64,000 bases of DNA from the NCBI RefSeq assembly GCF_003269275.1, contig NZ_QLTS01000010.1, positions 1 through 64,000 of the forward strand, written 5' to 3'. Positions 41,781-44,381 of the stretch are shown here, piece by piece. The notes beneath the pieces were generated by a model that had not been told where the DNA came from, did no database searches, and saw nothing but the letters and a program-made list of their open reading frames with translations. Position numbers and translations under genes: made by a program. The DNA is from Phascolarctobacterium faecium DSM 14760. Its GTDB lineage: Bacteria; Bacillota; Negativicutes; Acidaminococcales; Acidaminococcaceae. How positions within the stretch are numbered: the first letter of the stretch is position 1; the number at the start of each line of letters is the position of its first letter.

Positions 41781-41798
41781 AGCGTGATAAAAAAAACG

Positions 41799-41826
41799 AC
41801 TGCATAGCAGTCGTTTTTTTTATTTG
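41799..41826. terminator. Bidirectional terminator
   Basis: Stem AAAAAACGACTGC / GCAGTCGTTTTTT with an ATA loop, between convergent genes. Confidence 0.88.
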
Positions 41827-41837
41827 GTTTTAAGATT

Positions 41838-42344
41838 TTAAAAAGCTGATGTAACAAAACTTTCCATATCACCGGCACTTAATGCGCCGATATGGCTGTC
41901 AACGACATTGCTATCAGCATCAATGATATAACTTGTTGGTATGGCCTGAACGGCATAGGCTGAAGCAGCTGAACCGTTCGTATCAAGTGCAACGGGGAAA
42001 CTGAAAGCATGGTTTTCCATAAATGCAGTTACATCAGGTTTTGTGCCGTCTATGTTGACGATAACAAAATGAACTTTATCTCCATATTTAGCATACATTC
42101 TTTGGATATCAGGCATTTCTCCAACACAGGGAGGGCACCAAGTAGCCCAAAAATTAAGAAAAACAGGCTTACCTTTTAGAGAAGCAAGGGAAACAGTCTG
42201 TCCATTCATATCTGTTACAGTAAAAGGCGGAGCTGCGTTAGTTTCTGCTTTGGCAATATGCGGGAGGTCGAAAAAATGTACGCCACTTACAGCGACGGCA
42301 GTAAGTAAGATTACGCCTAAGAGAACTTTTTTGAGTGTGCTCAT
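41838..42344 (-). CDS. TlpA/ResA-type extracytoplasmic thioredoxin
   Basis: The 168-residue protein has an N-terminal membrane anchor or signal (about 5-22) and a thioredoxin fold with WCPPC (Cys70 and Cys73), LNFWATWC, and the cis-proline loop AIPTSYIID. It should act as a thiol-disulfide reductase outside the inner membrane. GCGAGGT precedes the ATG at 42344. It lies 112 bp downstream of a polyferredoxin-like membrane protein on the same strand, with a perfect inverted repeat between them. The neighbours suggest that its reducing power arrives from that membrane protein; this is inference. Confidence 0.9.
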   Translation of the reverse strand: MSTLKKVLLGVILLTAVAVSGVHFFDLPHIAKAETNAAPPFTVTDMNGQTVSLASLKGKPVFLNFWATWCPPCVGEMPDIQRMYAKYGDKVHFVIVNIDGTKPDVTAFMENHAFSFPVALDTNGSAASAYAVQAIPTSYIIDADSNVVDSHIGALSAGDMESFVTSAF

Positions 42345-42393
42345 AACAGTACCTCGCTTTGTAAAATTTTAGAATATCATAATAAACTTTATT

Positions 42394-42435
42394 TTAGTAT
42401 AACAAAGTTTATACTTGTAACGTTTGTTATACTAA
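42394..42435 (-). promoter_or_regulatory. 13-bp perfect inverted repeat upstream of the TlpA-like gene
   Basis: TTAGTATAACAAA (42394-42406) and TTTGTTATACTAA (42423-42435) are perfect inverted copies 16 bp apart. On the minus strand the right part reads TGTTATACT, an extended -10-like element for the TlpA-like gene. No T tract follows, so an operator is more likely than a terminator. Confidence 0.5.
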
Positions 42436-42456
42436 TTTTATAAATGGTTACAAAAG

Positions 42457-43314
42457 TTAATTATTTGTTGCTTCGGCAACATTAGTATCTGCTTTTTTCA
42501 CTTTAGATCCAAGCGAGATTGCGTTTACAGGACAAGTATCGATGCACTCGCCGCAGTTAATACATTCACGATCTCCCACCTTTGCGCAGTCCATTTTACA
42601 TTTGCGTATACAGGCATCGCAGCCAATGCATTTGACATTATCTACCTGGATCCCAAAATAAGAAAGTTTATTAAATAAACTATAAAAGGCTCCTAAAGGG
42701 CAGATAAAGCGGCAGAAAGGTCGATAGATGACGATGCTGGCAATAACAGTGACGAGCAGTAGAAATAATTTCCAGTTAAAAAGCATACCAAGATTTTCTT
42801 TGAGGAAGGGATTGGTGCTTAAAAGCGGTAATGCTGCTTCCAAAGTACCGGCAGGACAAATATATTTACAAAAGGCTGGTGCGCCAACACCAACGACATA
42901 GAAAAAAATTACTGGCAAAATAATAACGAAAAGCAAACCAATAATGTATTTAAGCTTTGTCAAAGTCCGCGTTGCTTTATTTTTAGTAAACTTTGGCGAC
43001 GGAATTTTATAAAGTAGTTCCTGTATGAATCCAAATGGACAGAGCCAGCCGCAGACAGTCCGCCCAAACAGTAGCCCAAAGAGAAGCATAAGTCCTAAAA
43101 CATAGAACGGAAAGCGTAGGAGCACTCCTGATAAAGAGCTTTGTAACGCTCCTAAAGGGCAGGCTCCTAAAGCACCTGGGCAAGAATAACAGTTAAGCCC
43201 GGGGACGCAAATACTTTTACTTGGACCCTGCCAGATTCGACCATTAAGGAATCCCGGCAGATTGCCATTATAAAGAAATGCGGTAAGGATTTGAATGAGG
43301 GTTCGTTTAGCCAA
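42457..43314 (-). CDS. NapH/MauN-like membrane protein with 4Fe-4S ferredoxin domain
   Basis: The 285-residue protein has about five membrane segments and four Cys-rich membrane loops of the polyferredoxin type: NCYSCPGALGACPLGA (41-56), RTVCGWLCPFG (85-95), FCKYICPAG (about 148-156) and FCRFICPLG (about 198-206). A C-terminal 2x[4Fe-4S] domain with CIGCDACIRKC and CINCGECIDTCP follows. It should pass electrons across or along the inner membrane. The start is a TTG at 43314 that overlaps the stop of the upstream CXXC peptide gene; GGAG about 10 bases upstream is the only ribosome-binding site. The C-terminal KKADTNVAEATNN tail is polar. Confidence 0.83.
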   Translation of the reverse strand: MAKRTLIQILTAFLYNGNLPGFLNGRIWQGPSKSICVPGLNCYSCPGALGACPLGALQSSLSGVLLRFPFYVLGLMLLFGLLFGRTVCGWLCPFGFIQELLYKIPSPKFTKNKATRTLTKLKYIIGLLFVIILPVIFFYVVGVGAPAFCKYICPAGTLEAALPLLSTNPFLKENLGMLFNWKLFLLLVTVIASIVIYRPFCRFICPLGAFYSLFNKLSYFGIQVDNVKCIGCDACIRKCKMDCAKVGDRECINCGECIDTCPVNAISLGSKVKKADTNVAEATNN

Positions 43315-43429
43315 TGCCGATACACTCCAGACAGATCATAGCTGCTTTACGAAGCACGCTAAGATATTGTTGTTGCCAAATGCCGATGCTTAAAAAAATC
43401 AGAGCTATCAGCCATAGATATTTTTTCAT
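43307..43429 (-). CDS. CD1871A-family CXXC motif peptide, 40 aa
   Basis: This 40-residue peptide has one membrane segment (KKYLWLIALIFLSIGIW) and ends AAMICLECIGIG. The CLECIGIG ending is the hallmark of the CD1871A family of small CXXC membrane peptides found in clostridia. Its stop codon overlaps the start of the polyferredoxin-like gene, so the two are coupled. A longer in-frame reading to 43531 has no ribosome-binding site and is rejected. The CXXC likely undergoes thiol-disulfide exchange at the membrane; its partner is unproven. Confidence 0.75.
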   Translation of the reverse strand: MKKYLWLIALIFLSIGIWQQQYLSVLRKAAMICLECIGIG

Positions 43430-43553: not shown

Positions 43554-43589
43554 TAAAAGGTAGTGATCTTAAAATTGGAGGATGGTAGT

Positions 43590-44381
43590 ATGGTAAGTGT
43601 AAAGAAAATTGTAATGGTGACCCTTGTAGCTGTAACGATGCTTGGACTTGGCGGTTTGTTCCCCCATGCAGAGGCTTCAAAACTGGACGAAGTTCAAAGT
43701 AGGGGCTGTCTTTTGGTTGGAACTACAGGCGATTATAAACCGATGAGTTATTTAAATCGGGAGACAGGAAGATATGAAGGCTTTGATACAGAAGCAAGCG
43801 AACTTCTGGCACAATCGCTTGGGGTACAGGTGAAGTTTATACCAACTACCTGGAGCACGTTGACTGCCGATACTTTAGCTGGTAAATTTGATATTGCAAT
43901 GTGCGGTATCACCCGCACTTTGGCAAGAGAACAAAAAATGGCGCAAAGCAATGGTTATCTGGTATTTGGTAAAACTATTCTGTGTCGTAAGGACGATGCT
44001 AAAAAATTTAAAACACTGGCGGATATGAATAAAAAAGATGTGCGTGTAATGGTTAATCCGGGAGGTACTAATGAAAAATTTGCCCTTGCTAATCTGCCTG
44101 ACTGTACATTGATCGTACATCAGCAAAATGCAGAGATCCCAGGTTTGATTGCGGAAGGAAAAGCAGATATTATGATTACAGAGACGATGGAAGCACGCCG
44201 TTATGTGCGTGATAATGCAAAACTTGCGGCTCCTTTGATCGAGGAACCATTTACAAAAAACAACTTTGGCATACTGATGCAGCAAGGTGATCAGATTTTT
44301 CTTAACTATGTGAATATGTGGATAGAAGAAATGGAGTTGAATGGAACATTTGCCCGTTTAGACGCTAAGTATATAAAATAA
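43590..44381 (+). CDS. Periplasmic solute-binding-fold protein resembling cyclohexadienyl dehydratase (PheC)
   Basis: The 263-residue protein has a signal peptide (cut after AEA near residue 29) and a family-3 solute-binding fold. Several blocks follow PheC, the periplasmic arogenate/prephenate dehydratase: TTGDYKPMSYL (45-55), GFDTEASELLAQSLG, KFDIAMCGITRTLAREQ, Lys128 in FGKTILC, VNPGGTNEKFA (155-165) with Glu162, and MITETMEARR. Lys128 and Glu162 fall where I place the catalytic Lys and Glu of PheC, from memory. The enzyme would make phenylpyruvate or phenylalanine outside the cytoplasm. An ordinary amino-acid-binding protein is the alternative; no ABC permease is adjacent, which favours the enzyme. 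ATG behind TTGGAGG. Confidence 0.78.
   Translation: MVSVKKIVMVTLVAVTMLGLGGLFPHAEASKLDEVQSRGCLLVGTTGDYKPMSYLNRETGRYEGFDTEASELLAQSLGVQVKFIPTTWSTLTADTLAGKFDIAMCGITRTLAREQKMAQSNGYLVFGKTILCRKDDAKKFKTLADMNKKDVRVMVNPGGTNEKFALANLPDCTLIVHQQNAEIPGLIAEGKADIMITETMEARRYVRDNAKLAAPLIEEPFTKNNFGILMQQGDQIFLNYVNMWIEEMELNGTFARLDAKYIK

Follow-up and report, generated by a model that had tools for sequence, protein, structure and literature searches.

A conserved membrane gene set of Phascolarctobacterium faecium as a candidate ferredoxin-linked route of envelope thiol reduction

Three small genes of Phascolarctobacterium faecium DSM 14760 encode a CxxC membrane peptide, a polytopic membrane iron-sulfur protein and a TlpA-type thioredoxin, and it is rather probable that the first two act as a wire for electrons across the membrane, reducing the third and standing in for CcdA/DsbD. 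The sequence features that favor this reading are the obligate pairing of the peptide with the iron-sulfur protein, fusions of the latter to TlpA, the conservation of the set, the frequent absence of CcdA among its carriers and the host's lack of genes for quinone synthesis. The genes are located on contig NZ_QLTS01000010.1, of which positions 1-64,000 were analyzed (the window, to which all coordinates of the locus refer).

Gene order and predicted architecture

The genes are transcribed from the minus strand in the order peptide (43307-43429, 40 aa), iron-sulfur protein (42457-43314, 285 aa) and TlpA-type thioredoxin (41838-42344, 168 aa), and the iron-sulfur gene starts with a TTG codon that overlaps the stop codon of the peptide gene. 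A sequence-only reading of this DNA had proposed three genes on one strand at this place, and the parts that it described, namely the CLEC peptide, the four cysteine loops with a ferredoxin domain and the WCPPC thioredoxin, were confirmed in the translations. A strong, symmetrical stem-loop of 18 pairs that A- and T-runs flank on either side (41786-41824, no strand assigned), identified as a terminator-like consensus match only, is likely a bidirectional terminator at the end of the module. Between the iron-sulfur gene and tlpA, upstream of the latter, a perfect 13-bp inverted repeat is found at 42394-42435 (TTAGTATAACAAA, a 16-nt spacer and TTTGTTATACTAA), which could be an operator; no counterpart was detected upstream of tlpA in ten relatives. 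On the other side of the module, positions 43563-44381 encode a divergently transcribed solute-binding protein (PF00497) whose best NCBIfam match, to a cystine-binding family, is below the cut-off, and this gene is not conserved as a neighbor in relatives.

The peptide (MKKYLWLIALIFLSIGIWQQQYLSVLRKAAMICLECIGIG) belongs to the NCBIfam family NF040920, 'CD1871A family CXXC motif-containing protein', with a score of 43.6 bits against a cut-off of 32, and displays the family's C-terminal CxxC motif after a single transmembrane helix. It ends in CLECIGIG, and this C-terminus is near-invariant in the form K-A-x-x-I-C-[LM]-E-C-I-G-[IL]-G-stop. Among 99 peptide homologues, both cysteines of CLEC (C33-C36, 43322-43333, minus strand) and the following glycine are conserved in 98 sequences and the terminal glycine in 96. 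Since the N-terminal flank of the helix is more positive than the C-terminal flank in 83 of the 99 sequences, the CLEC motif is predicted at the outer face. In loci with a fusion of TlpA to the iron-sulfur protein, the CxxC peptide is often much extended at its N-terminus, and additional membrane segments are predicted in the extension (L045:5118-5960, L039:1848-2444, L047:1852-2538, L050:5448-5996 and L056:5463-5966).

The iron-sulfur protein contains three Fer4_5 stretches and one ferredoxin domain (PF12801, 77.5 bits, gathering cut-off 22; PF00037, 32.9 bits), giving it a NapH-like appearance. Its cysteines are arranged in four loops, C36/C42/C45/C52, C88/C92, C149/C153 and C201/C205, and the ferredoxin domain contributes eight more, a number sufficient for two [4Fe-4S] clusters. 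Each of the 18 cysteines is conserved in no fewer than 97 of 98 homologues. The charge distribution of the loops was utilized to predict their sidedness: the C88-GWL-C92 loop (43039-43053), which is the most positive, and the C201-RFI-C205 segment (42700-42714) are predicted inside, and the C149-KYI-C153 loop (42856-42870), which has the lowest positive charge, is predicted outside, all three being invariant and on the minus strand. It follows from the helix count that the N-terminal loop C36-C52 (CVPGLNCYSCPGALGAC; 43159-43209, minus strand), in which C42, C45 and C52 are invariant and C36 is kept in 97 of 98 homologues, would also lie on the outer side. The C-terminus of the peptide and the N-terminus of the iron-sulfur protein are predicted on opposite sides of the membrane. 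The ferredoxin domain (42532-42630, minus strand; eight invariant cysteines between C229 and C261) is placed in the cytoplasm by the layout of the fusion proteins described below, as TlpA works outside the membrane and a hydrophobic segment precedes the fused TlpA domain. By this prediction, the inner face would hold four cysteines, the outer face six and the ferredoxin domain eight. AlphaFold2 models the protein with confidence (pLDDT 92.7, pTM 0.88). Searches for solved relatives of the membrane part by sequence profile, Foldseek and VIA-align returned nothing convincing beyond the ferredoxin domain, a lack of matches that should not be read as pointing to a new fold. Elsewhere in the host genome, three more Fer4_5 iron-sulfur proteins are encoded (G000:C7:38037-38465, G000:C2:178249-178569 and G000:C1:704266-704370).

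The third protein combines a TlpA/ResA-type domain (PF08534, 102.7 bits; PF00578, 97.6 bits; both above their cut-offs) with an N-terminal signal or anchor and a WCPPC active site (42126-42140, minus strand), and its nearest solved structures are those of ResA. In a PF00578 search of the host genome it was the sole TlpA-type match; two additional matches, in frames of 156 and 201 aa, look like peroxiredoxins, judged by size. The equivalent active site of relatives contains either cysteine or an in-frame TGA codon: in 16 loci, TGA occupies the first active-site position of a TlpA frame that is otherwise open, resulting in UxxC motifs such as WTTTUGPC. This TGA probably encodes selenocysteine, which fits the role of a reductant. 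Such genes lie beside the peptide and iron-sulfur genes at L008:2331-3110, L010:1720-3099, L042:5307-5849, L052:4413-4949, L077:5287-5829, L101:6752-7768 and ten more loci. A UGC-containing TlpA family is listed in a 2026 review of the selenoproteome (PMC13188914).

Conservation of the gene set and its relation to CcdA/DsbD

Relatives of the iron-sulfur protein were searched in one genome per species, which yielded at least 568 places; the best 80, spanning Clostridia, Negativicutes, Coriobacteriia and a Synergistota genome, were analyzed with profiles built for this purpose. In 79 of these 80 loci, the peptide gene is found directly upstream of the iron-sulfur gene on the same strand, with a median gap of -20 nt between profile boundaries, and in the sole exception (L055) 94 bases separate the start of the iron-sulfur gene from the edge of the sequence. 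The converse search gave the same picture: in loci found through the peptide an iron-sulfur gene adjoins, the one exception (L021) being resolved in a longer stretch (L148). The peptide and the iron-sulfur protein are thus an obligate pair. TlpA is the usual but not obligate third member: 67 of the 80 loci encode it on the same strand at a distance of up to 2.5 kb, upstream in 39, downstream in 15 and fused in 13. In the fusions, TlpA forms the C-terminal part of the chain and is linked to the iron-sulfur protein via one membrane helix, and a hydrophobic segment precedes TlpA in all 13 cases, so that the ferredoxin domain and TlpA are physically coupled on opposite sides of the membrane. Conservation of the set in relatives, whose lack the sequence-only reading had named as a refutation, is therefore borne out for these 80 loci, and the three-gene combination that it proposed holds for the pair but not for TlpA in the 13 loci where the latter is missing nearby. 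Only one record, a large replicon, places the gene set on a plasmid, so it is not a typical plasmid trait.

That these are simply annotated genes brought together by coincidence, with no joint function, is extremely unlikely. Although no member has been studied, the curated family match of each gene, the recurrence of the same order across phyla, the overlapping genes, the fusions and the invariant motifs, with 18 cysteines kept, argue that the set did not arise by chance. A different question is raised by the 13 loci in which TlpA is not nearby, as the pair could be a general outward wire for another acceptor (a metal ion, a radical or a reductase), with TlpA as an accessory that maintains the cysteines binding the outer cluster in the reduced state or aids the assembly of this cluster. 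TlpA and CcmG have clients in metal-centre assembly in other systems, and the pair is obligate although those 13 of the 80 loci have no TlpA close by. Eleven of the TlpA-less loci were inspected, and no other recurrent neighbor was found in them; the 13 fusions and the probable selenocysteine in TlpA suggest a catalytic partner, and the anticorrelation with CcdA described below is not predicted by an assembly role alone. Taken together, this accessory role of TlpA is rather unlikely. Pairs with neither a nearby TlpA gene nor a consistent neighbor were recorded in L037, L038, L053, L062, L069, L082, L094, L099, L105 and L109.

The DsbD transmembrane domain (DsbD_TM, PF02683) was matched neither by the three proteins nor anywhere in the 2.32-Mb host genome, which is rated 100% complete, in a search that was positive in 10 of 14 control genomes; the sequence-only reading had seen no DsbD/CcdA gene in the window, and this absence now extends to the whole genome. 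Of 150 genomes from the class to which the host belongs, 17 encode the peptide and 73 encode DsbD_TM, with no overlap and 60 genomes with neither, i.e. CcdA is present in 0/17 carriers versus 73/133 non-carriers (Fisher p=6e-6, uncorrected for phylogeny). Phylogeny was allowed for by genus counts only: at the genus level, the overlap in the class is limited to one genus (p=0.0017), in which four genomes (G029, G272, G378 and G426) contain the peptide without CcdA and one (G406) contains CcdA without the peptide. Across 299 genomes of the phylum, DsbD_TM was detected in 14 of 40 peptide carriers as opposed to 194 of 259 non-carriers, and a comparison of the 50 named carriers from the best 80 loci, 14 of which have DsbD_TM, with the same 194/259 non-carriers gave p=7e-10, again uncorrected for phylogeny. 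The gene set and CcdA/DsbD thus tend to replace each other, but not absolutely, and the earlier expectation that carriers lack CcdA/DsbD stands for the host and its class and fails for the 14 of 50 named carriers and the 14 of 40 phylum carriers with DsbD_TM.

Proposed electron path, donor and clients

The following path would connect the three proteins. A low-potential donor in the cytoplasm, most likely ferredoxin, would first reduce both clusters of the ferredoxin domain, which is placed on the cytoplasmic side, and electrons would pass from there to an inner-face cluster held by C88/C92/C201/C205 and further to an outer-face site built from C36/C42/C45/C52 and C149/C153. These six outer-face cysteines leave room for one four-cysteine cluster and one cysteine pair. 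From the outer site, electrons would reach a disulfide, either of the spare cysteine pair or of the CLEC motif of the peptide, which would then deliver two electrons to the WCPPC site of TlpA, and reduced TlpA would in turn reduce envelope proteins. What we infer in this path are the assignment of the clusters, the side on which each loop lies, the donor, the direction in which electrons run, the function of the peptide as a relay and the final substrates.

With regard to the donor, the Fer4_5 architecture brings to mind a quinol-linked, NapH-type system, in which the iron-sulfur protein would receive electrons from menaquinol and pass them outward to TlpA or another acceptor. NapH is thought to draw electrons from menaquinol, and the NapH/MauN family TIGR02163 is the best named relative of the iron-sulfur protein (64.7 bits). 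In addition, a UbiA-family gene is present in 25 of 67 carriers. No UbiA prenyltransferase was found, however, in the host, in all seven other carriers of the same family or, in total, in 42 of the 67 carriers. Unless the cells scavenge quinones, quinol is thus an improbable donor for carriers in general, and we consider this quinol-fed system distinctly unlikely. The remaining candidates are ferredoxin, flavodoxin and a partner linked to NAD(P)H, among which the presence of the ferredoxin domain would favor ferredoxin.

The direction of flow can also be reversed in thought: the module might oxidize TlpA and return electrons to the cell, thereby serving oxidative folding in a genome in which no DsbA-family protein was found. 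This is very unlikely, given that ResA, CcmG and TlpA, the TlpA/ResA relatives of known function, are established as reductants, that low-potential clusters and a selenocysteine-containing TlpA favor reduction, and that the module tends to be missing where the reductive CcdA is present. For outward flow to TlpA, the preferred reading, three client pathways were considered in the host, namely system II cytochrome c maturation, DsbA recycling and MsrA reduction. Searches of the host genome found no ResB, DsbA or MsrA, so that none of the three is a client pathway in this host; the clients best known for a route of this type are thereby lost, which counts against the wire. The envelope redox genes of the host are altogether unusually bare, as no CcdA/DsbD, DsbA, ResB, MsrA or UbiA was found in a genome rated complete.

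Comparison with described systems and possible meaning for fermenting anaerobes

By proposal, the chemistry of the module would resemble that of ferredoxin:thioredoxin reductase (FTR), its role that of CcdA and its architecture that of NapH-type proteins. The conduits CcdA, DsbD and ScsB share the proposed transmembrane supply of electrons to an extracytoplasmic TlpA-type thioredoxin; there, a membrane cysteine pair is fed by cytoplasmic thioredoxin, whereas here the membrane component is an iron-sulfur protein without a PF02683 match. NapH/MauN, NosR and CcoG, which also belong to the Fer4_5 proteins (PF12801), have in common with the present protein transmembrane helices that end in CxxxCP and a C-terminal two-cluster ferredoxin domain, but its scores are far below every named family cut-off: 64.7 bits versus 213.05 for NapH/MauN (TIGR02163), 26.9 versus 316.7 for CcoG/RdxA/FixG (TIGR02745) and 31.6 versus 1000 for NosR (NF046105). 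In comparison to NapH-type proteins and the content of their loops, ten membrane-loop cysteines, an invariant CVPGLNCYSCPGAxGACPxG loop, the obligate CxxC peptide and the TlpA partner are distinguishing features.

FTR has six catalytic cysteines, of which four bind the cluster and two are redox-active, a number equal to that predicted at the outer face of the iron-sulfur protein. It shares with the proposed module the use of one-electron clusters and a disulfide to reduce a thioredoxin, but is soluble and cytoplasmic, and neither the catalytic-chain domain nor any other FTR family was matched by the three proteins at E values up to 1. ResA and StoA of Bacillus share the TlpA fold, ResA providing the closest solved structures; ResA depends on CcdA and acts in the synthesis of cytochrome c, in contrast to a host without CcdA and ResB, and the TlpA protein scores 136.9 bits against a cut-off of 170 for ResA (NF002854) and 96.6 against 210 for StoA (NF041202). 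For TsoB of the Tso selenoprotein system (NF045694), the score is 19.3 bits versus a cut-off of 805, and no SAO (selenocysteine-assisted organometal) family is among the profile matches of the three proteins. As these cut-offs were not reached and no DsbD_TM or FTR domain was found, the set was not assigned to NapH, CcoG, NosR, ResA, StoA, DsbD or FTR. A Fer4_5 membrane protein is also used as a wire for redox reactions outside the cytosol in NapH-like flavinylated extracytosolic electron transfer systems; in the parts of that survey available to us, the partners are ApbE or FMN-binding proteins and not, as here, a thioredoxin with a CxxC peptide, a supply by quinol is assumed for some, and 'NapH-like' Fer4_5 wires and DsbD systems are described separately and not in this combination (PMC8238504).

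The same genes lie close together in Peptoclostridium acidaminophilum, where NCBI names them 'CD1871A family CXXC motif-containing protein', '4Fe-4S binding protein' and 'TlpA disulfide reductase family protein'. The peptide studied here is a member of that annotated family, and these names describe neither a function nor a system. Searches of the open-access literature, which covered the peptide family, the gene set, envelope thiol reduction driven by ferredoxin and related selenoprotein systems, found no paper that describes the set or its function. The sequence-only reading had called the combination not characterized, which is correct with respect to function and has to be amended with respect to existence, the peptide family having already been modeled as NF040920. 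The gene set is probably an uncharacterized substitute for CcdA/DsbD, and there is a fair chance that it represents a distinct class of envelope thiol reductant. Going further, it is hypothesized that it constitutes a third kind of envelope reductant route beside the quinone-linked and the thiol-cascade (CcdA/DsbD) ones, in effect a membrane-spanning ferredoxin:thioredoxin reductase in which an iron-sulfur protein and a 40-residue CxxC peptide would make an outer dithiol from one-electron, low-potential cytoplasmic electrons, and which would occur widely among fermenting anaerobes, in which quinones and CcdA are often missing. On the present sequence comparisons, we see this broader proposal as evenly balanced.

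We know of no way by which fermenting anaerobes without quinones or CcdA keep their outer thiols reduced. If the proposal is true, this gap would be explained in many gut Clostridia, Negativicutes and Coriobacteriia, an unstudied peptide family would gain a function, and the question would be directly testable with three small genes. The module would then also offer a natural example in which a membrane protein links electron transfer through iron-sulfur clusters with disulfide chemistry across the bilayer.
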